Shown one piece after another: positions 42,867 through 63,372 of a stretch of 64,000 nucleotides of DNA. The stretch spans positions 1,426,001-1,490,000 of the forward strand of contig CANKZR010000001.1 in assembly GCA_947488625.1 (NCBI GenBank). The letters are read 5' to 3'. The translations under genes and the position numbers were made by a program. This stretch comes from an uncultured Sphingomonadaceae bacterium (lineage in GTDB: Bacteria > Pseudomonadota > Alphaproteobacteria > Sphingomonadales > Sphingomonadaceae). The number at the start of each line of letters is the position of its first letter. The stretch's first letter is position 1. The notes beneath the pieces are model-generated. The model made no database searches. It had not been told where the DNA came from and worked only from the letters and a program-made list of their open reading frames with translations.

Positions 42867-42913
42867 TCTGCAAGGATTGACAGCGACGTTCATGGCGCGC
42901 ATTGGCGCGATCA

Positions 42914-43094: not shown

Positions 43095-43269
43095 GTGTCG
43101 TTCGTCCGGGGCCGGGTCCAGCCCAGTGGGACAGGAAAGTTCTTTTCCGAAGTAACGACAGCCAGGCCGGTTACCGGTGTCGCGGCTCATTTCGAGCGGC
43201 GGCGGGCCATCTGTCGAGTTGACCATGCGGGCACCGGAGCCTCCGCGTGGACTGGCTTTGGATTCTACA

Positions 43270-45198
43270 ATGAAAACCGCATTCTATTTGTCCGTCGCGG
43301 CATCGGCCGTGGCTTTGTGCTCGACCGGTGCATTCGCTCAGTCGGTCGACCTTCCCGAAGACGAGGAAGTGAACTCCGAAACGATCGTTGTCACTGCCAA
43401 CCGCACCGAACGTGCGATCAGCCAAGTCGGCGAGTCGGTCACGGTGGTTCAGGAAGAGGAAATCGTGAACCGCCAGCCGAGCGAAGTGCTCGATATCTTA
43501 CGCACGGTCCCCGGTGTCACCTTCAACCGCAATGGCGGGATCGGAACCAACACCGGCGTTTCGATCCGCGGTGCGGAGAGCGACCAGACCGTTGTGCTGA
43601 TCGACGGGGTAAAACTCAACGACCCATCCTCGACCGGTGGCGGCTTCAACTTCGGACCTGCCCTCACCGGCAACATCGCGCGGGTCGAAGTGGTGCGTGG
43701 GTCGCAGAGCGTTCTTTACGGCAGCCAAGCGATCGGCGGAGTGGTGAACCTGATCACCCGCGAGCCGACCGAGGAGCTTGGCGTGTTCGCGCGTGCCGAA
43801 TATGGTGAGCGCGACACTGCGGAACTCGTTGGCAACGTCTCTGGCAAGTTCGGCCCTGTCGGGGTGAGTGTCGGCGGTAATTACTATCGCACCGATGGCA
43901 TCTCCGCATTCAGCGAGGCGCGCGGTGGAACCGAGCCGGACGGGTTCGAAAGCCTTGGCGCAAACGCCAAGTTAGATATCGCGCTGGGCGAGAATTTCTC
44001 GATCGATCTGCGCGGTTTTTATGCCGACAGCGAGACCGATATCGATGGCTTCACGGCGACGGGCTTGGGCGATACCAACGAGGTTTCCTACCGCGACGAT
44101 TTGGTCGGCTATGGTGGGATCAATGCCAACTTCCTGGATGGACGTTTCCGCAACCGGCTGGGGATTGCATATACCAGGATCGACCGCCGGAACTTCAGCT
44201 TCGATACCGACTCCGAAACCTTCGACGCTTTCGGTGAGAACCTTCGCTACGAATATCAGGGCGTATTCGATGCAGCCGACATGGCCGAGCTGGTTTTCGG
44301 CGCAGAGCGCGAGGAATCGGAGTATCGCAGCTCGAGTTTCGGTGCGCCCGCGATTGGCGATGATGTGTGGATCAACTCGGTATACGGCCAGCTCAATTTG
44401 ACGCCGTTGGACGGGCTCTCGCTGACTGGCGGCGTTCGCTACGACGATCACGAAACCTACGGTGACAATACAACCTTCGCCGCCAGCGGTGCCTATTCGC
44501 CCAACGGCGGCGATACCGTGCTGCGCGGTAGTTATGGCGAAGGCTTCAAGGCGCCTGCGCTGTTCCAATTGTTCAGCGACTTCGGAAATACCGATCTTGA
44601 GCCCGAGGAATCGGAGAACTGGGATGTCGGTATAACGCACAATTTCCTTGGTGGCCGAGCCGAGGTGGGCGTCACTTATTTCGAACGCGACGCGACTAAT
44701 CTGATCGCGTTTGTCGGTTGCACCGGCAATCCGATCCCGGCGTGTCAGGATCCGGCCAATCCACGCCCGTTCGGCACATACGACAATATCGCACTCGCAA
44801 GTGCCGATGGCTGGGAATTCGGTCTGGCGCTGCGTCCGACCGATGGCTTCGACGTCGCGCTTAACTACACCACCATCGACGCCCGAAACGATGTGAACGG
44901 CAATCGCCTGCCACGACGTGCGCAGGATACGATCAGTCTGGTCGCGGACTACCGCATGGAGAACGGCATCGGCATCGGTGCCACCGTGTTCGTGGCGGGC
45001 GACAGTTTCGACAATGCCACCAACAGCACCCGCCTCGATGGCTATGTGGTGACCGATATCCGGGCGAGCTTTGGCATTACCGAGCAGATCGAAATTTTCG
45101 GTCGGATCGAGAACCTGTTCGACGAGCAGTATGAAACGATCTTCCGCTACGGCCAACCTGGTCGTGCGGTGTTCGGCGGCGTGCGCTACCGGATGTAA
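43270..45198 (+). CDS. btuB: TonB-dependent cobalamin receptor (BtuB)
   Basis: A 642-residue outer-membrane barrel. Signal peptide MKTAFYLSVAASAVALC... is cleaved near AFA-QS. The TonB box is ETIVVTANR; the plug has SIRGAESDQTVVLIDGVKLND and VEVVRGSQSVLYGSQAIGG. The barrel includes GEGFKAPALFQLFS and a last strand ending FGGVRYRM. The BtuB assignment rests on family resemblance, the cobalamin riboswitch upstream and btuFCD downstream. The ATG at 43270 was chosen because it gives the signal peptide. Confidence 0.94.
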   Translation: MKTAFYLSVAASAVALCSTGAFAQSVDLPEDEEVNSETIVVTANRTERAISQVGESVTVVQEEEIVNRQPSEVLDILRTVPGVTFNRNGGIGTNTGVSIRGAESDQTVVLIDGVKLNDPSSTGGGFNFGPALTGNIARVEVVRGSQSVLYGSQAIGGVVNLITREPTEELGVFARAEYGERDTAELVGNVSGKFGPVGVSVGGNYYRTDGISAFSEARGGTEPDGFESLGANAKLDIALGENFSIDLRGFYADSETDIDGFTATGLGDTNEVSYRDDLVGYGGINANFLDGRFRNRLGIAYTRIDRRNFSFDTDSETFDAFGENLRYEYQGVFDAADMAELVFGAEREESEYRSSSFGAPAIGDDVWINSVYGQLNLTPLDGLSLTGGVRYDDHETYGDNTTFAASGAYSPNGGDTVLRGSYGEGFKAPALFQLFSDFGNTDLEPEESENWDVGITHNFLGGRAEVGVTYFERDATNLIAFVGCTGNPIPACQDPANPRPFGTYDNIALASADGWEFGLALRPTDGFDVALNYTTIDARNDVNGNRLPRRAQDTISLVADYRMENGIGIGATVFVAGDSFDNATNSTRLDGYVVTDIRASFGITEQIEIFGRIENLFDEQYETIFRYGQPGRAVFGGVRYRM

Positions 45199-45201
45199 CC
45201 G

Positions 45202-46032
45202 ATGGTTCGGACGATCCTCGCGGCGCTGGCGTGCCTTTTGCTCTCTGCCTGTTCGCAGGTGGCGGAGCGGGGAGCGGACGCGCCGCGACGGATCGTCAGC
45301 CTCGACTACTGCGCCGACCAGTATGTCCTGAAGTTCGCGGATCGTGAGGATATCCTCGCGCTGTCGCCCGATGCGGGAAAGCGCTTTTCCTACATGCGGG
45401 CGGCGGCTGAGGGGATCCCCACGGTCCGTCCGCGCACGGCAGATGTGCTGGCACTGCAGCCCGATCTGGTGGTGCGAACTTATGGCGGCGGGCACGATAT
45501 CGCCGATTTCATGAAGGAGCCGGGGGTCCCGGTCGTGCAGATCGGCTTCCCCCAATCGATTGCCGAAGTGCGGGATGAGGTGCTGCGGGTGGGCACCGAA
45601 CTTGGCAAGCCGGATGAGGCCGAAAAGCTCGTTGCTGATATGGATCGGCGATTGAAGGCACTTGGAGAGAGGTCCGGTCCTCAACGCGAAGTTCTTTACA
45701 TGACCCCGGCAGGCGTAACCGCGGGCGAAGGCACTCTGGTGCATGAACTGTTCGTCGCGGCGGGCCTCGAGAATTTCCAGGATCGTCCCGGCTGGAACCC
45801 GCTGCCACTGGAACGGCTCGCCTACGAACGGCCCGACCTGATCGCGGCAGCCTTTTTCGAAAGCCAGACCAACCACGTCGATAACTGGAGCGCGGCGCGT
45901 CATCCGGTGGCGCGGGCACAACTGCGCGAATTGCCAGTCGTGCCGCTGGAAGGGGCCTGGACCTCATGCGGGGGCTGGTTCCTGATCGATGCGGTAGAGG
46001 CGCTCGCAGTAGGGAAGGAAGGCGCGCAATGA
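45202..46032 (+). CDS. btuF: Corrinoid ABC transporter substrate-binding protein (BtuF-like)
   Basis: A 276-residue lipoprotein-type binding protein (lipobox LLLSAC). It contains the class III binding-protein pattern RRIVSLDYCADQYVLKF, ADVLALQPDLVVRTYG, PVVQIGFPQS, and LERLAYERPDLIAAAFF. It follows btuB by three bases and overlaps btuC by four (ATGA). It hands corrinoids that entered through BtuB to BtuCD. Confidence 0.9.
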   Translation: MVRTILAALACLLLSACSQVAERGADAPRRIVSLDYCADQYVLKFADREDILALSPDAGKRFSYMRAAAEGIPTVRPRTADVLALQPDLVVRTYGGGHDIADFMKEPGVPVVQIGFPQSIAEVRDEVLRVGTELGKPDEAEKLVADMDRRLKALGERSGPQREVLYMTPAGVTAGEGTLVHELFVAAGLENFQDRPGWNPLPLERLAYERPDLIAAAFFESQTNHVDNWSAARHPVARAQLRELPVVPLEGAWTSCGGWFLIDAVEALAVGKEGAQ

Positions 46033-47006
46033 ACCGGGTAGTGGCGATATTGCTGGCAAGCCTTGTGGGCGCACTGGTCCTCTCGGTCGCATTGGGATCG
46101 GTGCCCTTGCCGCTTGACCGGGTGCTGGGCGCTCTCACATTCCAGTCGAGCCAAGGCGATCAACTGGTCGTCTGGCAAATCCGTCTGCCGCGCGCCTTCG
46201 CCGCAGGATTTGTTGGAGCGGCGCTGGGCATGAGCGGCGCGGCCTTGCAGGGCCTCTTGCGAAATCCGTTGGCCGAGCCGGGTATCCTCGGCGTCTCGGC
46301 CACCGCCGCACTATTCGCGACCTTCGTGCTGTATTTCGGTCTGGCAACTGCAGGCCCGTTGGTGCTGCCGCTGGCGGCAGTAGCTGGCGCGCTGATCGCT
46401 ACGCTGCTGGTGGCGCTCGCCGCCATCCGCACGCGCTCCGTCGTTACGTTAATTCTGATCGGCGTCGGCCTTTCGAGCTTCTCGGCAGCAATCATGGCCT
46501 TGCTGATGAACCTTGCCCCCAACCCCTTCAGCCTCGCGGACATGGTCAATTGGATGTTGGGGACGGTGGACAATCGCAGCTTCGACGACCTGCTGTGTGC
46601 TCTGCCCTTCATGGCGATCGGGGTCGCGGTTCTGCTGGCTTCCCGTCGCGGGCTATCCGCCCTCGCCCTTGGCGACGAGGCGGCCGAAGGAATGGGGCTG
46701 GACCTCAAGCGGCAACGGCTGGCGGTAATTATCGGCGCGGGGCTGGCAACGGGCGCCGCAGTCGCGCTGGCCGGAGCAATCGGCTTCGTCGGAATTGTCG
46801 CACCGCATCTTGTGCGGCCCTTCCTCCGCTACGATCCCGCGCGGCTACTGGTGCCCTCCGCTTTGCTCGGGGGACTGATTCTCGTGCTCGCCGATATTGG
46901 CGTTCGCGTGCTGCCGACCGATAGCGAGCTGAAACTAGGCGTGGTCGCCTCGTTGCTGGGCGCCCCAGTATTCATCTGGATCGCCGCGCGCAGGAGGCTG
47001 GCATGA
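46029..47006 (+). CDS. btuC: Corrinoid ABC transporter permease (BtuC, FecCD family)
   Basis: A 325-residue permease with about ten membrane helices. It has the FecCD landmarks IRLPRAFAAGFVGAALGMSG, LQGLLRNPLAEPGILG, MLGTVDNRSFDD and AGAIGFVGIVAPHLVR. It starts in the btuF stop and overlaps btuD by four bases. Confidence 0.92.
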   Translation: MNRVVAILLASLVGALVLSVALGSVPLPLDRVLGALTFQSSQGDQLVVWQIRLPRAFAAGFVGAALGMSGAALQGLLRNPLAEPGILGVSATAALFATFVLYFGLATAGPLVLPLAAVAGALIATLLVALAAIRTRSVVTLILIGVGLSSFSAAIMALLMNLAPNPFSLADMVNWMLGTVDNRSFDDLLCALPFMAIGVAVLLASRRGLSALALGDEAAEGMGLDLKRQRLAVIIGAGLATGAAVALAGAIGFVGIVAPHLVRPFLRYDPARLLVPSALLGGLILVLADIGVRVLPTDSELKLGVVASLLGAPVFIWIAARRRLA

Positions 47007-47776
47007 AGCTGCTAGAGGCAGAAGGCCTCGGCTATTCGGTCGACGGCAGGGTTCTGGTCGCCGACGCCGCGTTTGCTCTCGGCGCGGGCGAGCTGACCGC
47101 GCTCATAGGGCCGAACGGGTCGGGCAAAACGACCCTCCTGCGTCTTGCGCTAGGCGTGTTGGAAAAGGACGCGGGAAGCTCTTCGATCGATGGAACGGCG
47201 GTGGAATCGCTTTCGCCGGTAGAGCGCGCTCGCCGCGTTGCGTATCTGCCGCAAGCGAGTCCGCTCGTTTGGCCTCAGCCGGTTCGCGATGTCGTATCCC
47301 TCGGACGGTTCGCATATGGCGCTGCCCTTGGTCGCTTGTCGCAGGAAGACAGTGAAGCGGTGCAGCGCTCGATCCGGGCATGCCAGTTGGACGGCTTCGA
47401 GGAACGCGCGGCGGACACGCTCTCGGGCGGCGAATTGTCGCGAGTGCATTTGGCCCGGGCGCTTGCAGCAGAAACTCCACTGGTTGTGGCGGACGAGCCC
47501 GTCGCCGCACTCGATCCGCGTTACCAGCATCAGACCATGCAGCTGTTCGTCGACATGACGCGCGCTGGACGCAGCGTCCTGACGGTCATTCATGATCTCG
47601 ACCTCGCGCTGCGTTACGCCTCCAAGGTTCTCTGGATGCACGAAGGCCGAATTGTCGCAAACGGCACGCCGCAGGAGACCTTCACAACAACACGATTGCG
47701 CGATGTCTTTGGCATTGACGCTCAGGTTCTGAGCGACGGCTTGCATACCCGGCTCGAAATCTCCGGCCCTGCATAA
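47003..47776 (+). CDS. btuD: Corrinoid ABC transporter ATP-binding protein (BtuD)
   Basis: A 257-residue ATPase. Walker A is LIGPNGSGKTTLLRLALG, signature LSGGELSRVHLARAL, Walker B VVADEPVAALD, and the switch His in VIHDLDLALRYA. It energises BtuC. Overlaps btuC (ATGA); six bases separate it from cobQ. Confidence 0.93.
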   Translation: MKLLEAEGLGYSVDGRVLVADAAFALGAGELTALIGPNGSGKTTLLRLALGVLEKDAGSSSIDGTAVESLSPVERARRVAYLPQASPLVWPQPVRDVVSLGRFAYGAALGRLSQEDSEAVQRSIRACQLDGFEERAADTLSGGELSRVHLARALAAETPLVVADEPVAALDPRYQHQTMQLFVDMTRAGRSVLTVIHDLDLALRYASKVLWMHEGRIVANGTPQETFTTTRLRDVFGIDAQVLSDGLHTRLEISGPA

Positions 47777-47782
47777 CGTAGC

Positions 47783-49243
47783 ATGACCGGGCGCGCGCTC
47801 ATGCTTCAGGGCACCGGATCGGATGTCGGCAAGTCGCTGCTGGTGGCTGGTTTGTGCCGGATCGCGGCGCGTCGGGGGATTGGGGTCGCTCCGTTCAAGC
47901 CGCAGAATATGTCGAACAATGCCGCAGCCTGCCCCGGTGGCGGCGAGATCGGTCGGGCGCAGGCCCTGCAGGCAAGAGCGGCAGGTCTCAATCCATCGAC
48001 TGATATGAATCCCGTGCTCCTCAAGCCTGAAGGCGATCGGCGTGCGCAAGTCGTGCTCAATGGGAAAGCGCTGCGGAGCGAAGAAGCTGCGGCCTATATG
48101 GCCAATCGGGGGAGCCTGCTTCCCTCGGTGATCGAGGCATTCGAACGCCTGAAATCGGCGCACGGCCTCGTCATAATCGAGGGTGCGGGGAGCCCGGCCG
48201 AGGTGAACCTGCGCAGGGGTGACATCGCCAATATGGGTTTCGCGCGCGCTGCCGACGTTCCCGTAGTGCTTGTCGGCGATATCGATCGTGGTGGAGTCAT
48301 CGCTTCGCTTGTGGGCACCCGAACCGTCATCGAGGCCGATGATTCCGAGATGATCGCAGGCTTCGTCATCAATCGCTTTCGGGGTGACGAGACCCTTTTT
48401 GCGGATGGCGTGCGCTTCATCGAAGACTGTTGTAGCTGGCGCTGCTTCGGCATCGTGCCATGGCTGCAATGTGCCGCGCGGCTGCCCGCAGAAGACGCTG
48501 TGGTGCTGCACCAAGCCAGACTGAAAAGCGGTGCCATGCTCATTGCCGTGCCGATGCTGTCGCGGATTAGCAACTTCGACGATCTCGATCCGCTGCGCGC
48601 CGAGCCGGACGTGGAGGTCCGTTTCATCCCCGCCGGCCAGCCAATTCCGCGAGAGGCGGATGCGATTATCCTCGCGGGCACCAAGTCTACCTTGGCCGAC
48701 CTCGCGATGCTGCGGAACCAAGGGTGGCACCATGACATCCTCGCCGCCTGGCGCACGGGAGCGCACATTGTCGGCTTGTGCGGCGGGTTTCAGATGCTGG
48801 GCAAGCGGATCGAAGACGCCGACGCGGCAGATGGATTGGCAGGATCGGCAGACGGTCTTGGCCTGTTCGATATGACGACGATGATGACCCTCGAGAAAGT
48901 GGTTCGCCCCATAAGCGGAACCACGCTCGCCCATGGCGACCACGTGACAGGATACGAGATCCACACCGGTCGTTCGCATGGCCCTGCGCTGAGTAAACCA
49001 TTTTGTGAGCTCGAGGATGGCAGCTGTGATGGCGCGATCGCGGGAGATGGCCGCCTGATGGGCACTTATCTTCACGGTGTGTTCGCGAGCGATGCGTTTC
49101 GTTCTCGCTGGCTCGAGCGATTGTGCAGCGGTCGGAGCAGCACGCTCGACTATGAAGACAGTGTCGAAAATGCGCTGGACGAGCTTGCCGATGGGCTTGA
49201 GGTGGCCCTCGACGTGGATGCCCTGTTGGCGCTGGCGCGGTGA
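47783..49243 (+). CDS. cobQ: Cobyric acid synthase (CobQ)
   Basis: A 486-residue glutamine amidotransferase. N-terminal ATPase part: MLQGTGSDVGKSLLVAGLC, VAPFKPQNMSNNAA, EGAGSPAEVNLRRGDIANMG. The C-terminal GATase domain has nucleophile Cys333 in VGLCGGFQMLGKRI, with His later in GTYLHGVFASD. It amidates four carboxylates of adenosylcobyrinic a,c-diamide, so the importer can use partly finished corrinoids. Its stop overlaps the cbiB start (TGATG). Confidence 0.95.
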   Translation: MTGRALMLQGTGSDVGKSLLVAGLCRIAARRGIGVAPFKPQNMSNNAAACPGGGEIGRAQALQARAAGLNPSTDMNPVLLKPEGDRRAQVVLNGKALRSEEAAAYMANRGSLLPSVIEAFERLKSAHGLVIIEGAGSPAEVNLRRGDIANMGFARAADVPVVLVGDIDRGGVIASLVGTRTVIEADDSEMIAGFVINRFRGDETLFADGVRFIEDCCSWRCFGIVPWLQCAARLPAEDAVVLHQARLKSGAMLIAVPMLSRISNFDDLDPLRAEPDVEVRFIPAGQPIPREADAIILAGTKSTLADLAMLRNQGWHHDILAAWRTGAHIVGLCGGFQMLGKRIEDADAADGLAGSADGLGLFDMTTMMTLEKVVRPISGTTLAHGDHVTGYEIHTGRSHGPALSKPFCELEDGSCDGAIAGDGRLMGTYLHGVFASDAFRSRWLERLCSGRSSTLDYEDSVENALDELADGLEVALDVDALLALAR

Positions 49244-50187
49244 TGACCGCGTGGATCATGCTCGCAGGGCTGGCGGTAGAAGCCCTGCTCGGCTGGCCGG
49301 ACGCGCTGGACAGGCGGATCGGGCATCCGGTGCGCTGGTTTGGCCGGCTGGTCGAGCGGGCGGAGCATCTAGGCAATCGAGAAGCATGGAGCAAGCCGGC
49401 GCGGGGCGCGATGGGCGGTCTCGTAACACTGTTTCTGGTGGCGCTTGCGGGCTTGATCGGGCTGGCGATCCAGCTGGTCCTGCCTAATGATTGGGTAGGT
49501 TCCGTGCTGATGGCTCTTCTTGCCTCCAGCCTGATTGCCGCACGTTCGCTGCACGATCACGTCGCGGACGTGGCCAGCGCCTTCGAGGGCGCGGGGATCG
49601 ATGCAGCCCGGTGCACGCTCAGCCGCATCGTTGGTCGCGAGACTGCTGAGCTTGACGAGGCCGCCATCGCTCGAGCCGCTATCGAGAGCCTTGCAGAGAA
49701 CACCTTCGATGGCGTCACCGCGCCGTTGTTCTGGGGGACGCTTTTGGGATTGCCGGGTCTGTTTGCCTACAAGGCGATCAACACGCTCGATTCGATGATC
49801 GGCCATCGCAATGTGCGATATGAAGCCTTTGGCAAGGTCGCAGCCAGACTAGATGACTTCGTCAACCTGATCCCCGCACGTCTGACGGGGACCCTATTCA
49901 CGCTCTGTGCTGGTTCGGGTCGGGCCATGAAGGTGATGTTCCGCGACTCCCGCAAGCATCGTTCTCCCAATGCAGGATGGCCGGAATCCGCGATGGCAGG
50001 GGCGCTTGGCATCAGGCTCTCTGGCCCACGAACCTATGGCGCGGTGACGAGCGAAGAGCCATGGCTCAACGCCGACGCAGGAGACCCGGACGCGGTCGAT
50101 ATTCGTCGTGCGCTGGCTCTTTATCAGCGGGTCGTCGTTGCCGCCGCTCTGCTTTTAGCTGCGCTTGGATGGGCTCACTTGCCATGA
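49243..50187 (+). CDS. cbiB: Adenosylcobinamide-phosphate synthase (CbiB/CobD)
   Basis: A 314-residue membrane enzyme: IGHPVRWFGRLVE, a hydrophobic segment, SLAENTFDGVTAPLFWG, YKAINTLDSMIGHRN, and SPNAGWPESAMAGALG. It attaches aminopropanol (phosphate) to cobyric acid. The ATG at 49243 shares one base with the cobQ stop; a GTG one codon earlier is less likely. Ends within the start of the next gene (ATGA). The CobD name is used for this enzyme in Pseudomonas nomenclature. Confidence 0.94.
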   Translation: MTAWIMLAGLAVEALLGWPDALDRRIGHPVRWFGRLVERAEHLGNREAWSKPARGAMGGLVTLFLVALAGLIGLAIQLVLPNDWVGSVLMALLASSLIAARSLHDHVADVASAFEGAGIDAARCTLSRIVGRETAELDEAAIARAAIESLAENTFDGVTAPLFWGTLLGLPGLFAYKAINTLDSMIGHRNVRYEAFGKVAARLDDFVNLIPARLTGTLFTLCAGSGRAMKVMFRDSRKHRSPNAGWPESAMAGALGIRLSGPRTYGAVTSEEPWLNADAGDPDAVDIRRALALYQRVVVAAALLLAALGWAHLP

Positions 50188-51185
50188 GCGATCCCGATCT
50201 CGTTTCCGGCCATGGTGGGCGGATCGATGCGATGGCGCGCGCATTTCCCGATGCGCCCCTGCCATGGATCGACCTTTCCACCGGTATCAATCCAGCTCCC
50301 TATCCTTTGCCCCAAATTCCGACCGATGCATGGACACGGCTGCCAGGCGAGGTAGCCCGCGCTAGCTGCGAGAACGCCATGGCTGGTGCGTTCGGATGCG
50401 ATCCTGCCTACTGCCGCGCGGTTGCGGGAACCGAGGTCGCCATCCGCCAACTGCCGTCGATCCTGCGGGCGAAAACGGTGGCGGTTCGCGCTCCAAGCTA
50501 TGCCGATCACGCGCACAGCTGGCGATCTGACGGCGCAAGCGTCGTAACAGGCCTCGATCCGCTGGAGCTGGTCGAAGAGGCCGATGTCCTGGTCCTCGTG
50601 AATCCCAATAATCCCGACGGGCCTTGCTGGCCTGTCGAGCGGATCGAACACGCGCGGGCCCGACTCGCGAAGCGCGGCGGCTGGCTGATTGTGGACGAGG
50701 CCTATGCCGATCTCGATCCATCGAAAAGCGTCGCTCCGTTTGCCGGGAGGCAGGCGCTGATAGTGCTGCGATCCTTCGGCAAATTCTACGGCCTGGCAGG
50801 GCTCCGGCTGGGTGCGGTGCTAGCTCTACCCGATGTTCTGCGCGAAATTGGGGAAAGGCTCGGCGGCTGGGATGTTTCCGGACCGGCATTGGCTATCGGC
50901 AAATCAGCCTATGCAAATGTTGAATGGCAGGCGGCAACCCGCAAACATTTGGCGCTGCGGATGCACAAGCTGCGGACATTGATCACGTCGGCGGGCCTGA
51001 ATGATCGCGGCGGAACCGATCTTTTCCGGTTCGTCCAGGCATCCGATGCACCTGCTCTGTGGCGACAGCTGGCTCGCCATGGCATCGCCGCTCGTCGATT
51101 TGCAGAAGACGATCATCACCTGCGTGTAGGCCTTCCGGCCGATGCTGCGCAGTTTGATCGACTTGCGGAAACCCTCAACCTTTGA
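50184..51185 (+). CDS. cobD: L-threonine-O-3-phosphate decarboxylase, PLP enzyme (CobD/CobC type)
   Basis: A 333-residue class I aminotransferase-fold protein. It has WIDLSTGINPAPYPLP, LVLVNPNNPDGPCWP, WLIVDEAYADLDPSKS, and the PLP lysine in VLRSFGKFYGLAGLRLG. It makes aminopropanol phosphate for CbiB. Translationally coupled to cbiB. Its 3' end overlaps that of convergent cobU by 11 bases. Salmonella nomenclature is used. Confidence 0.92.
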   Translation: MSDPDLVSGHGGRIDAMARAFPDAPLPWIDLSTGINPAPYPLPQIPTDAWTRLPGEVARASCENAMAGAFGCDPAYCRAVAGTEVAIRQLPSILRAKTVAVRAPSYADHAHSWRSDGASVVTGLDPLELVEEADVLVLVNPNNPDGPCWPVERIEHARARLAKRGGWLIVDEAYADLDPSKSVAPFAGRQALIVLRSFGKFYGLAGLRLGAVLALPDVLREIGERLGGWDVSGPALAIGKSAYANVEWQAATRKHLALRMHKLRTLITSAGLNDRGGTDLFRFVQASDAPALWRQLARHGIAARRFAEDDHHLRVGLPADAAQFDRLAETLNL

Positions 51186-51681
51186 GCCGCGAGGGTATCC
51201 CGGCGACCACGAGCTCGACCGTGTCGGCGATTTCGGCGAGCCGCTGGTTCAGTCTCCCCTGCTCGTCACGGAAGTCTCGGCCCAACTTCGTTTCCGGGAC
51301 GATGCCCGACCCGACCTCGTTGCTGACCAGGACCACATTCGGTGTCGCGGATGCGATGCTATCGATCAGAGCAGCGGTTTCGCTGGAGATGTCCCGCTCC
51401 GCTAGCATCACGTTCGACAGCCACAAAGTGCAGCAGTCGATAAGTATCGTTCCCTCATTCAGCGAAGCGATCGTATGCGCAAGTTCGATTGGTGACTCGA
51501 CCGTCCGCCAATGCCCGTCACGTTCTTCGCGATGTTTTTGAATTCGCTCTTTCATTTCGGAATCATACGCCTGTGCAGTGGCGATGAATCTGTGCGGTCC
51601 CTGCAATCGCTTGCTCGCCGCAAGGGCGTGCCGGCTTTTGCCCGAACGAGCGCCCCCGAGGATGAGGTGAACAGAAGCCAT
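51175..51681 (-). CDS. cobU: Adenosylcobinamide kinase / guanylyltransferase (CobU)
   Basis: A 168-residue bifunctional enzyme. P-loop: ILGGARSGKSRHALAAS; then FIATAQAYDSEMKERIQKHREER (guanylation-site His region), ILIDCCTLWLSNVM, VLVSNEVGSGIVPE, and LNQRLAEIADTVELVVAGIP. It phosphorylates adenosylcobinamide and transfers GMP. The ATG at 51681 shares one base with the DUF1289 stop (TGATG). It is the only cob gene on the minus strand. Confidence 0.95.
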   Translation of the reverse strand: MASVHLILGGARSGKSRHALAASKRLQGPHRFIATAQAYDSEMKERIQKHREERDGHWRTVESPIELAHTIASLNEGTILIDCCTLWLSNVMLAERDISSETAALIDSIASATPNVVLVSNEVGSGIVPETKLGRDFRDEQGRLNQRLAEIADTVELVVAGIPSRLKG

Positions 51682-51872
51682 CAGATAAAGCCTTCGTCTA
51701 GTCGCCGCGCTGCCGCCCGGTTTGCGGAACGTTTCTCGTCGCACGACATGCTGGACCAGCGCGCGATCTCATGCAGTGTTCGACCACAGCCCATGCAGAC
51801 CTCCTCGTCATCCGACAGCTTACAAATACTCCGACACGGTGATTGCGTGTCGTCAAACCTTATACTGGGCAT
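51681..51872 (-). CDS. DUF1289 family small Cys-rich protein
   Basis: A 63-residue protein with the DUF1289 pattern: SPCRSICKLSDDEEVCMGCGRTLHEI, shown as CxxxC...CxxC, followed by a W and basic helix. These proteins are Fe-S/Zn-type in appearance and of unknown function. The ATG at 51872 matches the family start. It is co-translated with cobU, so it may be part of the corrinoid module or only a neighbour. Confidence 0.85.
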   Translation of the reverse strand: MPSIRFDDTQSPCRSICKLSDDEEVCMGCGRTLHEIARWSSMSCDEKRSANRAAARRLDEGFI

Positions 51873-53453: not shown

Positions 53454-54161
53454 CTAAGGGGATGATGACACAACACGACCGTTGCCGCGTTGCCAGAGCG
53501 GCCTTTGAGACTTGTAGCCTGCCCTCTTCCTTGCAGCCCTGCCCAAAGTGCGGCTCACACCAGTTCGACGACCGACGACGACTCCTTGGGGTTCTACCCG
53601 CTTGATTCCAAAGCGAAAGGCGTCTCGAGGACTGATGCCTTTGAGGAGATATTTACGAGCAGCCACGCTGTTGCGAACCCTATCGATTTTGACCGCGCCA
53701 TCTGGCGCCGGATCGTGGTTCTCGGCGCGCTTGCGCGGCCCTGCTCCTTTGTGCTCAAGACTGGTGATCCAGCGCGGCACCAGATCCTTGAACTCTGCCA
53801 CCAGTTGCTCAGGAACGTGGACCAGCCAATGCACATGGTTCTTTTCGCGGGCGTATGCGTGATGCGGCGCGATTGAGATACCCAGCTGCTCGCAACGAGT
53901 CCTCAGCCAACGGCAGAATCGCTGATTTCTGAGTTCAGCGAAGTTGTCCTTGCCGGTTTTCGTAAGGTTCCACTGAATGGTCACCATCAAATTCAGCGCG
54001 ACAGGTGCGCTCACATTGGATGGCGGACACCCATTCCGAGACTGCCCCCCTCCCTGGGGAAGCGCAAATCGGCATGCGTGGTAAAGAGCTCTTGCAGCTG
54101 CAACGCTGATAAAGCTCGTCGTCTTCATTTTCGACTGGGGTCTTGGCTGCATTGTGCTCAT
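53454..54161 (-). CDS. HUH-endonuclease-like (Rep/transposase-type) protein
   Basis: A 235-residue basic protein. The central part reads NLMVTIQWNLT (beta strand 1), then KNHVHWLVHVPEQL with a His-x-His (HUH) metal motif, and later VAARKYLLKGI, a Y-x-x-K that fits the catalytic tyrosine motif of rolling-circle Rep and Y1 transposases. The C-terminal GVVVGRRTGVSRTLGRAARKR is a basic tail seen in related plasmid/phage-type proteins. No named family is certain. No inverted-repeat ends were found, so it is not called an insertion sequence. Confidence 0.65.
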   Translation of the reverse strand: MSTMQPRPQSKMKTTSFISVAAARALYHACRFALPQGGGQSRNGCPPSNVSAPVALNLMVTIQWNLTKTGKDNFAELRNQRFCRWLRTRCEQLGISIAPHHAYAREKNHVHWLVHVPEQLVAEFKDLVPRWITSLEHKGAGPRKRAENHDPAPDGAVKIDRVRNSVAARKYLLKGISPRDAFRFGIKRVEPQGVVVGRRTGVSRTLGRAARKRAGYKSQRPLWQRGNGRVVSSSP

Positions 54162-56439: not shown

Positions 56440-57234
56440 CTATCCGTCAGGCTGTGACGGCTGGTCAGCGAGAGCAAGCTGCAGGAAGTGTTCGCTCAGG
56501 GCCTGCGCGCCTTCCTCGTTCGCGAGCGAGCACCACGCCTGCCAGCGCTCTACCCGTAGGGCTATCCAGGCGAACAACCGGTCGCGTGCATGGGTGTCGG
56601 GCAATTCGATCACCCACAGCGTCCGCGAGAGTGGCATGTTGCTCCCGATCCTGGCACCAAGCAGCTTGATTGCCGCCCTGCCCTCCAGTGTATCGCGCAC
56701 GAACCGGAAAGGCAGGTCTGTGGTGCGGGCCTCGATCTCCGCAAGCACGCGCTCGCGATCTTCGAGCGTGGCACCCCGATCAAGGCCGCGAGTGAGGCCG
56801 AGAGAGGCAAGGCCGATCGGAAGCCCCGCATAGTCTGTCGAGCGGGTGGAGGCTAACATGAGCAGGACCGCCCTGCCCTCAGGAGTAAGTCCGTAGGCTC
56901 CACGCTCCGTGAGCAACCCGACGGCTTCGAGCCAGTTTTCGTAATGGGCGCGCAGCGTCCACGATCCCTCGCAAAGGTCGAGAACGCGCTCTTCGATGGG
57001 CACGAGGTCCCGACTGTGTGCAGCAAGAACTGCTAGCATGAATTCGAGCTGGGAATCGATGAGCTCAGAATAGCGCCCGGGCATACCGAGGCGCCCGTTC
57101 CACAGGCAATGACGCACGCTTTCCCAGCGGTTGCCGGCTTCATCGATCAGCTCATTCTGCCCCGGCTCCACGTGAAGCCAGTAGCCCCAGGGTAGGCTGG
57201 CATTCCGGCGGTCCTGATAAGCACGGTTGTCCAT
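56440..57234 (-). CDS. Hypothetical protein, element-encoded
   Basis: A 264-residue, mainly helical protein I do not recognise. The start at ATG 57234 has GGAGG seven bases upstream; that site overlaps the stop of the preceding gene, and another ATG at 57246 overlaps it as TGATG. A segment ERVLDLCEGSWTLRAHYENWLEAVGLLTERGAYGLTPEGRAVL resembles winged-helix spacing but no family is certain (quoted only by its landmarks WTLRAHYENWL and GLTPEGRAVL). It is translationally linked to the upstream gene. Confidence 0.6.
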   Translation of the reverse strand: MDNRAYQDRRNASLPWGYWLHVEPGQNELIDEAGNRWESVRHCLWNGRLGMPGRYSELIDSQLEFMLAVLAAHSRDLVPIEERVLDLCEGSWTLRAHYENWLEAVGLLTERGAYGLTPEGRAVLLMLASTRSTDYAGLPIGLASLGLTRGLDRGATLEDRERVLAEIEARTTDLPFRFVRDTLEGRAAIKLLGARIGSNMPLSRTLWVIELPDTHARDRLFAWIALRVERWQAWCSLANEEGAQALSEHFLQLALADQPSQPDG

Positions 57235-57245
57235 TTTCGCCTCCA

Positions 57246-57911
57246 TCACGCCTGATCTTCGTCGATGGCGCGAGAGCCGATCTGCAACGGCTTGCTGCTT
57301 CCCTCGAAAGGTCGATGCGTGAACGCTTTCAGCGCGCGCGCCAGATTGCGGACTTCATGGAACACGAAATGCATATCTCGATACACCTCACCCTCCTCGC
57401 GGTAGCGGTCGGGTTTGATGCCAGTCGGCACGAGGTCGCCCGGATGAGATGTCCGGAACCCGAACCACCACTTGTCATCATGCTCAGCGGCTCCTGGCGC
57501 GTGGCTCGGAGTTCCCGTCGGTCGGATATGGCACACGCGGACTGCCTCGGGTCCGTATCGACGGCATGGTTCGGCGTAGTCGATGCCGCCATGCGAAGCG
57601 TTGCGCACGGCCCGAGGAAGAGCATCATGATTGTAGCCATGAAGTGGGTGATCAGGATCGACTGAGACGTAGCCGGACAGCGTCGAATTCTCCTGCCGCA
57701 AAATGATGCAGTCTAGTCCGCTCTCGGGGTCTTTCCAGGCGATCTTCCCAGGTTCGTCAGACCAAATGCCTCGCTCCGTCGGCTGCCGCTCGGGCAGGCG
57801 ATAAAATTGTTCGGGCCGGATTTCCGTATTCGCAATAACAAAGCGTTGCGGCAGCGTTGGAGCAGTCGATTTTGTTGGCGCAATTGCCTTGGAGGTCTTC
57901 TTCTTGGGCAT
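57246..57911 (-). CDS. Conserved plasmid/phage-type protein (HPLHG ... HGGIDY ... WWFGF motifs)
   Basis: A 221-residue protein. Behind a lysine-rich start (MPKKKTSKAIAP) lies a core with SGYVSVDPDHPLHGYNHD, ASHGGIDYAEPC, and DDKWWFGFRTSHPGDLVP. This motif set is recurrent in plasmid- and phage-borne hypothetical proteins; its function is not known to me. The His-rich conserved positions suggest a metal- or nucleotide-binding enzyme, which is only a guess. The ATG at 57911 has GGAG upstream, directly after a hairpin-terminator. Confidence 0.65.
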   Translation of the reverse strand: MPKKKTSKAIAPTKSTAPTLPQRFVIANTEIRPEQFYRLPERQPTERGIWSDEPGKIAWKDPESGLDCIILRQENSTLSGYVSVDPDHPLHGYNHDALPRAVRNASHGGIDYAEPCRRYGPEAVRVCHIRPTGTPSHAPGAAEHDDKWWFGFRTSHPGDLVPTGIKPDRYREEGEVYRDMHFVFHEVRNLARALKAFTHRPFEGSSKPLQIGSRAIDEDQA

Positions 57912-57926
57912 TGGTATTCTCCATTG

Positions 57927-57958
57927 AAAAAGGGCCGCCACACGATCGTGGACGGCCC
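57927..57958 (-). terminator. Hairpin with T5 between array genes
   Basis: On the minus strand GGGCCG...CGGCCC closes a stem (57958-57932) around GATC, with TTTTT following. The T-run leads directly into the GGAG of the next gene, so the element is both 3' end and 5' leader. Confidence 0.7.
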
Positions 57959-58015: not shown

Positions 58016-58900
58016 CTACATGACCCTCTCTCCTTCCCGGTCAGATGAGCCATCGACGTGGTAGACCACGCCTTTCAATCGATGGCGCGCATTCCGCGCC
58101 CGCACCCAAGGCTTGAGCGTGCGGGTCACGAACTCGCTGTTCGGCTGCGCTGCATGTGCCGCATTGACGATCGCGAGATCGGTCGCCATCTGGTCGCAGG
58201 TGATCTGGCCGAGAGCGACCCAGTGACGAACCGCAAGGAGCGCGGTCGCCAACGTATCAGCGAGGCACTGTTCTCGAACGGGTGTCCACTCACCTCTCTC
58301 GACAAGTTTGCCGATAGAACTGGCGGCTATAGGCTTGGCTGGAATTGAGAGTGCCGCTGCATACTCACCGAGGTGTGCGTTATCTGCCAAGCCTGCCACG
58401 GCCCGACACAGATCAACGCGTTCGCCTGCGTGCGGCGAGAGGTTGCGCAACTGATCGGGAAGGAGGAGGCAATGCTCTGTTGCACAACGACGCAGGACGG
58501 GCAGATCGCGGAACTCCCCTCCCCATGTCACGAATGCGCCACAAGGATCGGTGCGAAGCGTATCGAACAGGCTCTCGACGATGTCGACCTCGGCTGAGGC
58601 TTCCATCGTCCGAATGAACGGCCCCTCAATCCGCGGACTCCTCTCGCCGGCGACGAAGGTGAGAGTAATCCAGCTAGCCGCGGCGATGCGGTCGTATGGC
58701 CATCGGATGGGCGCTGCATCTTTGCCCTCTTGGGTCTTGTATCCATGATGTCTTGATCGGTCCCAGAGAAACTCGAAATCGGCGACGATGAGAGAGCGAG
58801 TTGGCCTGCCCTCCTCGCTACCATTCCGGGCTGCGAAACTGCGAGCCTGCTGCTCGAGGTCCTGCACGAGCTTGTCCATGCGGTCTGATTGATTGGTCAT
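58016..58900 (-). CDS. Predicted 3'-5' exonuclease, PolB-exonuclease-like (DEDD)
   Basis: A 294-residue protein. Exo I motif is in SLIVADFEFLWDRS (D and E), exo II in FVTWGGEFRDLPVLRRC, and the third region in QCLADTLATALLAVR; LCRAVAGLADNAHLGEYAAAL matches the helix seen in the DNA_pol_B_exo2-type family. It should degrade single-stranded DNA or RNA. The start at 58900 has AAAAGGA. An HTH-free, standalone nuclease, it lies next to a second exonuclease of a different family. Confidence 0.75.
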   Translation of the reverse strand: MTNQSDRMDKLVQDLEQQARSFAARNGSEEGRPTRSLIVADFEFLWDRSRHHGYKTQEGKDAAPIRWPYDRIAAASWITLTFVAGERSPRIEGPFIRTMEASAEVDIVESLFDTLRTDPCGAFVTWGGEFRDLPVLRRCATEHCLLLPDQLRNLSPHAGERVDLCRAVAGLADNAHLGEYAAALSIPAKPIAASSIGKLVERGEWTPVREQCLADTLATALLAVRHWVALGQITCDQMATDLAIVNAAHAAQPNSEFVTRTLKPWVRARNARHRLKGVVYHVDGSSDREGERVM

Positions 58901-58918
58901 GGCGATATTCCTTTTCGG

Positions 58919-58953
58919 AAAAAGCAAAGGCACGCCGGTCGGCGGGCCTTGCT
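58919..58953 (-). terminator. Hairpin with T5 between the two exonuclease genes
   Basis: On the minus strand AGCAAGGC (58953-58946) pairs with GCCTTTGCT (58931-58923, one bulge), with an inner CGCCG/CGGCG stem, followed by TTTTT. The AAAAGGA of the 58900 gene follows at once. Confidence 0.7.
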
Positions 58954-58981: not shown

Positions 58982-59869
58982 TCAGCGGTGCCGCTGGTGT
59001 GCGGTTACGGTCCTGAGCGTCGGCGCCGGCAGGCCCTCGGTGTAGAACCAGGCCTCCTCGTGCGAGACAAGGCTTTCCTCCAACTCCTTCTCCCAGACCC
59101 GCCGCGTCGCATTCCAGCGATACTGCCGAGCTTTGAGGGCATCCTTCTTGGCGATCGGCGCACGGATCGCCTGCACCAGCACGGTGGTGCGATCAGCACC
59201 TTCGAGCAGGCGTTCGAGATGACTGCGTTCGGGGTCTCTGCCCCAGCCCCGCCGGCGCTGCTGGAGAAGCCAGAACAGCGACCAGACATCGTCGCCCGCG
59301 CGATGCGCATTGCTGTGCCATCCTTCTTGCGCGAGCAGCCACTGCTGGGCGCGTCCGTCCATCCCGGCGCGCAGCCAGTCGATGTCCTTCATCGAGCACG
59401 CCCATGCGGCCCCTTTGATCTGCGGATACCGGCGCTCCAGCCAGCTCACTTCAAAGCAAGCGTTGTGAGCCACCAACAGGTCCGCGCGGTCCAGCATTGC
59501 GAGCACCTCTTCGTCGGGGATCTTCCGACCAACGAGGTGGTGGTTCGCAAGAGACGTGATCCAAGTGATCCGGGGGTCGATCTCGACCTGCGGATCTTCC
59601 TGCCAGACCCGGGGCGCGATGTGGTTGAGAACCTCACCATTCTCGCCGACCCATACGAGCATGATCGCGAGTTCCATGATGCGATCGTTCGCGGGATCAA
59701 GGCCAGTCGTTTCAAGGTCAATCAGCGCCACGCAGCGTGCGTCGGGTGGTGCACCTTTCGGCACATTCGAATAGGGCCGGGAAACAGCCCGCAGCACGCG
59801 ATAATTCGGGTCCGTTTCGAGGCGCCGTGCGACGTCCTCGTATTCGGGACTCAGATGTTCGATATTCAT
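58982..59869 (-). CDS. DnaQ-like 3'-5' exonuclease
   Basis: A 295-residue DEDDh-type nuclease. Exo I is CVALIDLETTGLDPANDRIMEL, given by its key DxE residues; exo II ADLLVAHNACFEVSWL; exo III HRAGDDVWSLFWLL with HxxxxD. A C-terminal extension (about 225-295) with RQYRWNATRRVWEKEL is a separate small domain seen on some plasmid exonucleases. The start at 59869 has AAAGG. It is the first gene of the minus-strand array after the relaxase. Confidence 0.88.
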   Translation of the reverse strand: MNIEHLSPEYEDVARRLETDPNYRVLRAVSRPYSNVPKGAPPDARCVALIDLETTGLDPANDRIMELAIMLVWVGENGEVLNHIAPRVWQEDPQVEIDPRITWITSLANHHLVGRKIPDEEVLAMLDRADLLVAHNACFEVSWLERRYPQIKGAAWACSMKDIDWLRAGMDGRAQQWLLAQEGWHSNAHRAGDDVWSLFWLLQQRRRGWGRDPERSHLERLLEGADRTTVLVQAIRAPIAKKDALKARQYRWNATRRVWEKELEESLVSHEEAWFYTEGLPAPTLRTVTAHQRHR

Positions 59870-59942
59870 ATGATTTTGCCTTTCGGTTTGTGTCCGAACC
59901 GACGAGGCGAATGCCGAGTGTTTCACACTCTTTTCCATTCAC

Positions 59943-60103: not shown

Positions 60104-62728
60104 CTATCGGCCCTGCTGTCTGTTGCTGCGCTCCGCAATCCGTTGGCGACGTGCGAATTCCTGATCGCTCTCGCCATCCTTCTGGTAAAATGCTCCCCTG
60201 TATTCTTCGGCGGCGAGGCCGGTGGTGCGGCGGAGCTGTTCCGCCTCTGTGTATTTCATGGTCCGGAATATCGCGTGGCGATCCGCATGCCCGCTCGTGC
60301 GCATCCATTCGTCTACGATGTAGGGGGCCAAGGGCTTCTCTTGATCGGACCCCTCGCGGGCTTCTCGCCAGACCGCGATCTCGGGACGGACGGTGAGATC
60401 GACAATCTTGCCCGAATAATCTCCCTCGGCCGCTTCCCGCAGCTGAGCAACGAATGCGGGATCGCCACGCTGCCCCTCGATAAATTCGGCGGGCCAGCTG
60501 CCGTGGCTATCCGGTATGACCAGCTTGTCTTCTCGGAGCTTAAACTCACCCATGGCAAGACCCGTGAAGATCCACAGCCTCTTGGCTTCCTGGACCCGCC
60601 TGATCGCTTCCAAGCGCTGCTGGACTTCAGGACGCACCAAAGCATGCGGTAAAGTGGCAAACTTCTTCAACAGTTCCTCGTCGTCGAGGAAGCGGACACC
60701 TTCTACCGAGAATTGCGATACGCACAGCAGCATCCGGTCGCAATTCATCTCGGTCAGGAAGCGATTAGCGATGGGAATTTTTGCAGAGTTCGGTTTGCCT
60801 TCTCGGCGATCTTTGTCATCACGCGCGTTGCGCCGGCGGAAGTCCTGCAATACCAACGGAGTGAAACGGGCGCCTCGCTGTTCGCGCCCCTGTTGCTTTT
60901 GAAGCTCTTCCGAGGGCTGGGTATCCGCCTTTTTGCGTTTGGATCTTTCGAACCAAGCAGTGTCGAAGATTACCTCGCTGACCGGCCCCTTCTTCACCCT
61001 CGATTTGACCAGCAGCTTCTCTGCTTCCGTGGCCTGCTTTGCGTCGAGCGGAATTTGCATTTGTGCGGCCAGCAATAGCATTTCGCGGCGGTAGCTTGCA
61101 GGCCCGACAACTTTGACCGTGCCGAACTTCTCCTGCGCACGGCGCAAAGCATCGATCTTTGCCTGACGGTCGTCCGAATACACCGCGATGAAGCTTGCAG
61201 TTTCTATGAACCCGATCTCGTGGTTCAGCCGGTAGATCCGGCTGAGGTCAGATAGCTCAATCGAATAGCGCTTCGTCCACATGCCCGGTTCTTCATCATG
61301 ATCGAGGAAGAGCGTTTCGTATTCACCCCACAATACCGTCGAAGCAGGTTCGGTTTTCGGCCGCGGCCCTTTGCGTTTACGTCCAGCCTCTCGGTCGAAG
61401 GACAAATGCAATTCGCGCAGGATTCTCTCAGCCTCCTGTCGGCTCGCTTTCTCGCGCTTCTGCTGGAGGTTGTGTTGGCGCCGTTTTTCATCGCGCGACT
61501 TCAATTTCTCCCGCGCCTTTTTTGCATCCACACGCTGGTGTTTGATGGCCTCGCGCCGTTCTTGCAGCGCCTGTTCGAAACCCTCTAGTTCACTGTCGAT
61601 CTGCGCTTGCCGCTCAGCTTGCTCAGTAAGGTCGATATCACGTGACAGATCGCGCCCGCCTGCGTGCCCCTTCTTTCGATAGGCAGGAGCGACGAACGAA
61701 CGAACGCGGATGTCGCTTGCCGGCGCTTCGTAGGGACACTTACCCAGCTTGTTGCAAAGCCGCTTATAGCCCGCATTAACATCGCTGGCGGGGATGCGGT
61801 CGTCACTCTTGTCGAAGACCCCGTTGGCGACCAAATGACCGCCCGCAATCTCGCCTTTAACCCGGTAAGGTTCGTAGCGAAGACCAACACGGGCAAGACC
61901 CCGGTGCCATTCGTCCCAGCTCTTCGCCTGCCGGCTTACGGCGCGCGCAAGCAGCTTGATGGCTTTTGGGTTGGGAAGCGCTTGGCCGACATGGGCGTCG
62001 GTGGGGGCAAGAACTTCGGCATCGAACTCGGCCTGTTCTGCTTCGACCGCTTTAAACGCGCCGCGGTTAATGATGTCGCCGTTCGGCTCTGCCATCCGGA
62101 ATCCGCTCCAGGTATGGTAGACGCCTGTTTCGTCGGCTACGTATCGGCGGTTGGGTTCGGGCTGCAGATTATCTTGTGCCTCGCAGATGGCCAGGGCGAT
62201 ATGCAGCGCCTCGATTTCCTTCCCCTGCCCCCATTCGCCGACCTTGCCCGACCTGCTGTCGGCAGTGCAGACGGCAAGGTGAAAATGGCCAAAGCTCGTG
62301 TCACCATGGTTCGAGTAAATCATGGGCTTGTTTTCGGCCCGTAGCACGCGACGAAAAATGTCCCTGTGGCTGGCGGCCATCTCGTGGGTTACGGGCTCGT
62401 CTCCGTAAGCTACGACGATCTGCCGCAATGAATTCTTTCCCGACGCTGCAACTAGATAGGCAAATTCAAGCGCCCGGTCCTGTTCAGTGCCCTCTTCAAG
62501 ATTGAAAATCGCCACATCGAGAACACGCGTATCGTCGTCCCGGTCATCGGGACCATATGAACCGATATTGCTGGCCTCGCGCACAAGCGTGGATTCATCC
62601 TGGCCCAGTTCCAAATCGAGCACATATTTGGCGACCGCCCATCCCGCGAAGAGCGCCTTGCGGTCGGCGCTTGAGATAGTTGCGATATCCCTAAAGAGAT
62701 GCGCGTAGGAAATACTCTTTGCGATCAT
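60104..62728 (-). CDS. Relaxase (MOBP-like) of a mobilisable element
   Basis: An 874-residue conjugative relaxase. It starts MIAKSISYAHLF. Relaxase metal motif is SNHGDTSFGHFHLAV (His141, Asp143, His148, His150), which is the HxD...HxH of MOB enzymes. A highly charged coiled coil spans about residues 370-470. A C-terminal domain follows with no helicase motifs visible. It nicks oriT DNA and leads the strand to a recipient. Its ATG overlaps the mobC stop (ATGA). The matching oriT is at 63306-63330. Confidence 0.87.
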   Translation of the reverse strand: MIAKSISYAHLFRDIATISSADRKALFAGWAVAKYVLDLELGQDESTLVREASNIGSYGPDDRDDDTRVLDVAIFNLEEGTEQDRALEFAYLVAASGKNSLRQIVVAYGDEPVTHEMAASHRDIFRRVLRAENKPMIYSNHGDTSFGHFHLAVCTADSRSGKVGEWGQGKEIEALHIALAICEAQDNLQPEPNRRYVADETGVYHTWSGFRMAEPNGDIINRGAFKAVEAEQAEFDAEVLAPTDAHVGQALPNPKAIKLLARAVSRQAKSWDEWHRGLARVGLRYEPYRVKGEIAGGHLVANGVFDKSDDRIPASDVNAGYKRLCNKLGKCPYEAPASDIRVRSFVAPAYRKKGHAGGRDLSRDIDLTEQAERQAQIDSELEGFEQALQERREAIKHQRVDAKKAREKLKSRDEKRRQHNLQQKREKASRQEAERILRELHLSFDREAGRKRKGPRPKTEPASTVLWGEYETLFLDHDEEPGMWTKRYSIELSDLSRIYRLNHEIGFIETASFIAVYSDDRQAKIDALRRAQEKFGTVKVVGPASYRREMLLLAAQMQIPLDAKQATEAEKLLVKSRVKKGPVSEVIFDTAWFERSKRKKADTQPSEELQKQQGREQRGARFTPLVLQDFRRRNARDDKDRREGKPNSAKIPIANRFLTEMNCDRMLLCVSQFSVEGVRFLDDEELLKKFATLPHALVRPEVQQRLEAIRRVQEAKRLWIFTGLAMGEFKLREDKLVIPDSHGSWPAEFIEGQRGDPAFVAQLREAAEGDYSGKIVDLTVRPEIAVWREAREGSDQEKPLAPYIVDEWMRTSGHADRHAIFRTMKYTEAEQLRRTTGLAAEEYRGAFYQKDGESDQEFARRQRIAERSNRQQGR

Positions 62729-63249
62729 CGGCCTTTCCTCGGCACGATCTCCTTTGCCGGGTATCGCTCAAGCATTTCGTTCATATGCTTTTGACCCAGT
62801 TCGCGGGCTTGTCCGGCAAGCGACTTTGCCTGAGACTCCATCCGCTCAGCAACGGCGTGAAGCTGCATCGCAAATTCGCACAAATTCTCGATACCCTCCC
62901 GGCTGTTTTCGGCGCCGAAATTTTGGCCCGCCGAGCTAACGGAGACTGTCGCAGAATCCTGAAGGGCGATACTCGCCTGGCCTAGCAACTCAGCGCTGTC
63001 ACGCAGATTACGGGCAGACTGGTAAACGCCGCCGATGGCCGCGTAAGTGGGATCGTAGACATCGCCCCGGGTCAACCCGCGATCTCGCAGGAAAGCGGAA
63101 AAGCTCAGCCGACCCTTTTGTTTTTCAAGCTCTGCCTTCTCTGTCTCGTTTACGAAGACCTTGATGATGCGATCGCGTCGATCCTTCGGAGAGGGATCAT
63201 CCTGCTCTGCCTCTACATCCGACGGAGATTTGAAAGAACGTTCGGTCAT
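62725..63249 (-). CDS. MobC/TraJ-like relaxosome accessory protein
   Basis: A 174-residue protein. After a charged N-terminus there is a ribbon-helix-helix-like stretch, IIKVFVNETEKAELEKQKGR, followed by SFSAFLRDRGL, as in MobC-type mobilisation proteins. The C-terminal half is a long amphipathic helix region. It is expected to bind the oriT inverted repeat and recruit the relaxase. It is translationally coupled to the relaxase and starts about 57 bases from the oriT repeat. Confidence 0.8.
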   Translation of the reverse strand: MTERSFKSPSDVEAEQDDPSPKDRRDRIIKVFVNETEKAELEKQKGRLSFSAFLRDRGLTRGDVYDPTYAAIGGVYQSARNLRDSAELLGQASIALQDSATVSVSSAGQNFGAENSREGIENLCEFAMQLHAVAERMESQAKSLAGQARELGQKHMNEMLERYPAKEIVPRKGR

Positions 63250-63305
63250 CTTCCTTCCCTCCCTTCTTCAAGGGCGGCACGAAGCGCAGCGACACGACGC
63301 CTAAA

Positions 63306-63330
63306 GGAACGGGACCCGTTCCCATCCTGC
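63306..63330. other. Origin of transfer (oriT) with nic site
   Basis: GGAACGGG-A-CCCGTTCC (63306-63322) is an 8-bp perfect inverted repeat. One base later on the plus strand comes ATCCTG|C, the nic core of MOBP-type oriTs (RP4/R64: YATCCTG|Y). The predicted cleavage is between 63329 and 63330. It sits in the 120-base gap between mobC and the next gene, the expected place. Confidence 0.85.
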
Positions 63331-63372
63331 TTATTGCTATACCCTTCAAATGGTGTGCCGTATGGTGCTGAA

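Follow-up and report, generated by a model that had tools for sequence, protein, structure and literature searches.

Where would conjugative transfer of a chromosomal island in the Sphingomonadaceae begin, and what kind of element would be moved? The question is raised by an intergenic gap directly upstream of a relaxase gene in a 64,000-nucleotide stretch of DNA, here called the window, from an uncultured Sphingomonadaceae bacterium (assembly GCA_947488625.1, contig CANKZR010000001.1, positions 1,426,001 to 1,490,000 of the forward strand). A preliminary description of positions 62725-63372, a range that comprises a small NikA-like gene and the gap, had placed an origin of transfer (oriT) there. 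We conclude that the site is very probably the MOBP (RP4/R64)-type oriT of an iMOB-type integrative mobilisable element (IME) of about 50 kb, located at the 3' end of a tRNA-Pro gene. It is assigned to the MOBP (RP4/R64) type because of its motif and adjoining repeat, its conservation, the pairing of its two stems and a gene order that is the same as in R64. This kind of system is already known; the relaxase that accompanies it is diverged.

A predicted nic site beside an inverted repeat

The nick site (nic) of MOBP systems of the RP4/R64 type follows the consensus YATCCTG/Y, in which the slash marks the nick. In the window such a motif is directly preceded by an inverted repeat, as in an oriT of this type. 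The arms of the repeat, GGAACGGG at 63306-63313 and CCCGTTCC at 63315-63322, are separated by a spacer of 1 nt, and on the + strand they are followed by C at 63323, ATCCTG at 63324-63329 and C at 63330. The preliminary description had reported an 8-bp inverted repeat one base before ATCCTG/C and was correct to the base; a second, outer stem (63272-63302) was absent from it and is added here. The motif is antisense to the NikA-like and relaxase genes and directly upstream of them, which gives the order typical of a MOBP oriT region: oriT, small DNA-binding gene, relaxase gene. Both stems fit within the 123-bp gap immediately ahead of the NikA-like start. By analogy with R64 and RP4, whose nick we take to lie at this point of the motif, a cut between 63329 and 63330 is a good prediction.

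The window contains 56 ATCCTG sites on its two strands, and this is the sole one at which a perfect repeat of at least 7 bp (loop 1-6) ends at most 4 nt before the motif. When the gap was widened to at most 14 nt, one extra site was found, at 8357 (8-bp arms, gap 8). None of the papers listed in a literature search contained YATCCTG.

Recurrence of the site in relatives

A search for the relaxase in 298 genomes of the family gave matches in 16 of them (the bacterium's own included), at 18 places. An antisense ATCCTG, chosen by eye, lies upstream of the relaxase at all 18 places, the window included, and at 13 of them a perfect repeat of 7-8 bp ends 1-2 nt before it. No other ATCCTG site of those loci has such a repeat (0 of 98, of which 55 are in the window). 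Of the remaining five, L007, L008, L016 and L019 have a repeat that looks imperfect by eye, and that of L021 is weak. At L012 the relaxase reading frame (873-3360) is apparently split over two frames, yet the oriT repeat is perfect.

A scan of named genomes yielded 14 loci. In all of them there is an ATCCTG ahead of the relaxase in antisense orientation, with a C before it. They come from an Erythrobacteraceae metagenome-assembled genome (86%), Erythrobacter tepidarius (71%), Qipengyuania (two), Parasphingorhabdus, Sphingorhabdus, Novosphingopyxis, Allopontixanthobacter, Porphyrobacter, Citromicrobium (two), Aurantiacibacter and uncultured Sphingomonadaceae (two). Twelve of the 14 carry a perfect repeat of 7-9 bp at this motif, versus none of 144 other ATCCTG sites. 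Eleven loci were caught by the filter, and L072-L074, which have TC before the motif and identical sites, by reading. The two sets of loci overlap: several genomes are common to both, and several sequences are the same or nearly so.

A search of plasmids with the whole oriT returned no record covering 80% of the query, and the best 20 of its 39 records were short partial matches with E of at least 0.05. The genome's other relaxase match (L001, on contig C6) has two ATCCTG sites in a 3.2-kb locus, neither of which, judged by eye, is accompanied by such a repeat.

Two conserved stems and a near-invariant core

An alignment of 13 non-identical related sequences was used to follow the pairing of the inner repeat and of the outer stem. 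The 7-nt arms of the outer stem enclose a near-invariant core, ACGAAGCGCAGCGACAC (63279-63295), whose columns are mostly invariant, two being nearly so; L010 and L077 have one extra base in it. Taken jointly, the two stems show two-sided changes at 13 of 15 pairs, and 94.9% of cells are paired. In controls that were slid out of register, this figure fell to 39.5-50.3%. The covariation score is 0.660, versus 0.250 for shuffled and no more than 0.178 for slid controls, and four of five pairing measures were reached by none of 500 shuffles.

When 397 family genomes were scanned for a two-part pattern made of the core, 18-40 nt and CATCCTG, 7 of them contained it, at 8 places in all; the reversed control gave no match. 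The pattern was built from known sites, and it misses G194, which carries the relaxase. All 8 places adjoin a relaxase of this family. Seven of them were already in the 298-genome relaxase search; at the eighth, in G722, 8000 bases are identical to those of L070, a locus with the relaxase.

Comparison with known systems

The oriT of RP4/RK2 (IncP) has nic ATCCTG/C preceded by a repeat. RP4 is self-transmissible, has TraJ/TraK, and its repeat is 19 bp long. The layout of R64 (IncI1, MOBP) is like that of the window, with a hairpin, a repeat and CATCCTG/T in this order, antisense and directly upstream of nikA-nikB; this likeness concerns the layout of the oriT. The two sites differ in detail. 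The R64 repeat ends about 3 nt before ATCCTG and is longer (17 bp according to the title of a paper; 14-nt arms with one mismatch as measured here), and its outer hairpin has a loop of 3 nt, versus 17-18 nt in the family of the window.

Similar arrangements are found on plasmids, to whose relaxases that of the window is 24-29% identical in the four cases compared. On p80-1-2-tetX3 of Acinetobacter, which is typed MOBP and is a plasmid, unlike the island of the window, a perfect 9-bp repeat ends 1 nt before an antisense ATCCTG/T, which lies ahead of a small gene and the gene for the relaxase (relaxase identity 28% over 19% of the query). On all three of the TraI/MobA(P) plasmids pTC-F14, pMVF16-5 and p11K1 an antisense ATCCTG(T/C) lies ahead of a small gene and of traI, the likely one having been chosen by eye among several ATCCTG sites nearby. 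The nearest repeat of 6-9 bp on these three plasmids stops 12-15 nt short of the motif, in contrast to the 1 nt of the window. Two of the three are classed as non-mobilizable in PLSDB.

Table 1. Features of the oriT region and of the island in window coordinates. Counts of relatives for genes are from tblastn against 14 relatives, not all of which are independent. The slash marks the predicted nick.
Feature	Coordinates	Strand	Remarks
Inner inverted repeat, GGAACGGG-A-CCCGTTCC	63306-63322	+	Adjoins nic; 8/8 pairs with two-sided changes, 96.2% of cells paired
nic motif CATCCTG/C	63323-63330	+	CATCCTG invariant in all 13 aligned rows
Outer oriT stem	Arms 63272-63278 / 63296-63302	+	5/7 pairs with two-sided changes, 93.4% of cells paired
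MOBP-like relaxase, 874 aa, LPD7 domain	60104-62728	-	LPD7 34.5 bits (over cut-off)
NikA-like (ribbon-helix-helix) accessory gene, 174 aa	62725-63249	-	PF21983 17.9 bits, below cut-off 27
orfU, other side of oriT	63373-64395 (past window end, 64000)	-	Matched in 6/14 relatives; no Pfam match
DnaQ-like exonuclease (PF00929)	58982-59938	-	Downstream of relaxase in 13/14 relatives
PolB-type 3'-5' exonuclease-like (PF10108)	58016-58933	-	13/14 relatives
Conserved gene (phrog_2164)	57246-57941	-	12/14 relatives
Conserved gene, no family match	56440-57249	-	12/14 relatives
Left att repeat, 3' end of tRNA-Pro(cgg) (33891-33967)	33948-33967	+	Identical 20-bp copy at 84056-84075
Diverged tyrosine integrase-like gene, 695 aa	34089-36176	+	Adjoins tRNA-Pro; phrog_1 integrase 27.5 bits

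The relaxase and the accessory gene

Judged from its sequence, the protein of the window is a diverged MOBP-like relaxase. When the N-terminal regions of 11 members of the relaxase family were compared with profiles, PF03432 matched 9 and TraI_middle 5 at E 0.1 or better, the best PF03432 match having E 2.1e-13. Residues Y35, H141, H148 and H150 are invariant in the 11 aligned relaxases, as in MOBP proteins; we take them to be the motif I tyrosine and part of the motif III metal site. The D of the HxDxxxxHxH metal site is absent from L011 and L022. Across the class, a profile search gave relaxase matches in 4 of 385 genomes, the bacterium's own included, and the other three matches are very weak. 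Among solved structures there was one match only, at chance level. No paper was found in the literature on a relaxase with LPD7, nor on a relaxase of an Erythrobacter genomic island.

The earlier proposal of a MOBP-type oriT beside a relaxase is thus borne out by a conserved site, compensatory changes, an R64-like order and retained catalytic residues. The same description had called the small gene mobC. A small accessory gene does lie there, and it is better named NikA-like, a name that is itself weak given its score against PF21983 (Table 1); this ribbon-helix-helix profile is found in 3 of 8 members of the NikA-like family at E 0.1 or better.

The integrated island

The limits of the island were found by comparison with seven same-genus stretches upstream of purF. 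Synteny with them breaks at 33973 and resumes at about 84204. The right copy of the attachment (att) repeat lies beyond the window, at C1:1510056-1510075. Flanking att repeats are thus combined with a site that is empty in relatives, as is characteristic of an IME. The tRNA-Pro/purF junction is empty in G300 and near-empty in G014, contains about 0.85 kb in G306 and holds about 8 kb of other DNA in G309; in G323, G308 and G312 no far-side match was found within the stretch fetched. This junction (33891-33973; C1:1510056-1510204) looks like an insertion hotspot. Short direct repeats were also sought as island ends between 51.1-54.5 kb and 83.5-86 kb, and nothing beyond 11-12 nt was found. Long repeats are lacking near cobU because the left end of the island is at the tRNA and not there.

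The integrase candidate was found by reading the open reading frames (ORFs) beside the tRNA gene. A search of the whole genome with PF00589 gave 14 matches, none of which is inside the island. The island is also without a match to the coupling protein (PF02534) or VirB4 (PF03135), in a search that left aside other subunits of the type IV secretion system (T4SS) and the ORFs at about 41-51 kb, and therefore a helper would be needed. In this respect the preliminary description, which spoke of a transfer-competent module, went too far. Elsewhere in the genome, PF02534 matches occur on contigs C3, C5 and C6 and PF03135 matches on C1 (155 kb) and C4, all of them outside the island, and these proteins could be helpers. 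From its gene content, the island is most aptly described as an integrative mobilisable element of about 50 kb with its own relaxase and a putative dependence on a helper. Canonical IMEs or iMOBs, as outlined in two reviews (PMC5704250; PMC11389934), likewise have their own relaxase and oriT, lack a mating channel and are integrated in the chromosome. According to the 2017 review among these two, no IME described in Proteobacteria belonged to this category, though it names putative IncP-type islands with their own MobP relaxase and some T4SS proteins.

Points against the reading and alternative explanations

Several observations weigh against a functional MOBP oriT on a mobile island. The pairs were picked from the same alignment of related sequences in which they were scored, which favours them, and further pair types are no more frequent than in shuffles (148 of 500). 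One outer-stem pair (columns 12-33) is broken in the window and in three other sequences; the outer stem of the window has one G-A mismatch and one G.T pair. The window strand folds about as well as shuffled DNA (z -1.23; opposite strand -0.79), and its minimum-energy fold retains the inner stem and loses the outer one. Elsewhere z is lower, at -1.83 in L011, -2.40 in L007, -4.22 in L010 and -7.74 in R64. The relaxase of the window scores under the curated cut-offs of PF03432 (13.8 versus 24.6 bits) and NF041893 (45.7 versus 250 bits), and it was not reported by a whole-genome search with PF03432. The NikA-like protein is matched in just 3 of the 14 relatives by tblastn. Finally, the integrase assignment is weak, with 14.5 bits against PF00589, below the cut-off of 27.1.

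This weak integrase match would also suit a relict oriT, on an island that is no longer able to excise or to be moved, as would the lack of a coupling-protein or VirB4 match. We consider such decay unlikely. The relaxase ORF is open along its full length with its conserved residues in place, the oriT is preserved, a close relative (relaxase 86% identical) retains the same site, and the att repeats are identical over 20 bp.

It is far less probable still that the stems form a regulatory leader, an attenuator or operator, in the nikA-nikB mRNA, with ATCCTG incidental. Their position just ahead of the NikA-like start would fit a leader, and an accessory protein, MobC of RA3, autoregulates its operon according to the title of a paper. 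The odd pairs of the inner stem (1 G.T versus 2 A.C) show no preference for the nicked strand. In the outer stem, however, there are 8 cells with G.T on the nicked strand versus 1 with A.C, which would be G.U in mRNA; most of the eight probably go back to one event. A lean of the odd pairs to folding of the nicked strand is confined to the outer stem and comes from few independent events. Against a leader, too, CATCCTG is invariant and adjoins the stem in 13 of 13 rows, and the same layout is that of the R64 oriT, whose function is known. As the sole role of the site a leader is unlikely, on odd-pair evidence that comes from few independent events; the two roles can coexist at one site. A chance match of repeat and ATCCTG is ruled out by the site counts in the window and in the loci of relatives, because only 1 of 56 window sites qualifies and the antisense motif recurs at the relaxase places of relatives.

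A proposed course of transfer

For the MOBP oriT, which we prefer, the following course is proposed. The integrase of the island would excise the element as a circle. The NikA-like protein would bind oriT, by analogy with NikA of R64, and the inner stem would present nic to the relaxase. The relaxase would cut the + strand between 63329 and 63330 and, as its motif and conserved residues suggest, would stay joined through Tyr35 to the 5' end at C63330. Transfer would start towards 64000, with the relaxase gene entering last. The inner stem may also end transfer on the return of the strand; in R64 the inner stem has a role in ending transfer.

Genes downstream of the relaxase and cargo

Four genes follow the relaxase in most relatives (Table 1). 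For these counts, the contig of L069 stops just beyond the relaxase match, and the last two genes of L057 are perhaps outside the stretch. Identities within the block are 37-54% outside L057 (26-33%), and DnaQ reaches 76-78% in L061, L080 and L081, whose relaxases are 23-24% identical to that of the window. Outside L068 and L069, relaxase identity to the relatives is 23-39%. L068, the closest relative, has a relaxase 86% identical to that of the window and a block at 42-54%; block and relaxase have therefore been exchanged separately. We can offer only tentatively, as a rather improbable reading, the idea of an iMOB lineage in the Sphingomonadales that has its own relaxase clade, a two-stem oriT on the 17-nt core and a four-gene block working with the relaxase. 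In such a lineage the block might, for example, trim or copy the transferred strand in the donor or the recipient. The separate exchange of block and relaxase makes this idea less probable.

Among the cargo genes of the island is one for a cobalamin-type phosphoribosyltransferase (DBI_PRT). The stretch 37497-51744 carries cobalamin and TonB-receptor-like genes, most of them identified by eye. The CobU-like protein had no match in 8 same-genus genomes, in a search without a positive control. On the leading side of oriT, a defence cluster at C1:1490485-1509784 (64485-83784 on the window scale) contains a type III restriction-modification pair, a DrmD-like helicase, WYL, McrB/McrC-like, RNaseH_2-helicase and NOV_C genes. 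Additionally, a gene at 53454-54161 on the - strand resembles, by eye, a REP-associated/Y1 HUH transposase; it has no Pfam match and has distant matches in L055, L056 and L071.

Significance for the Sphingomonadales

The site provides a predicted nick position and, in the two-part pattern, a search tool for mobilisable islands in the Sphingomonadales. The exonuclease-like block, which accompanies the relaxase in most relatives, may offer a concrete lead on how DNA is processed when such islands are mobilised. For the bacterium itself, the site suggests that an island with cobalamin genes and several defence genes moves by conjugation through a borrowed channel.

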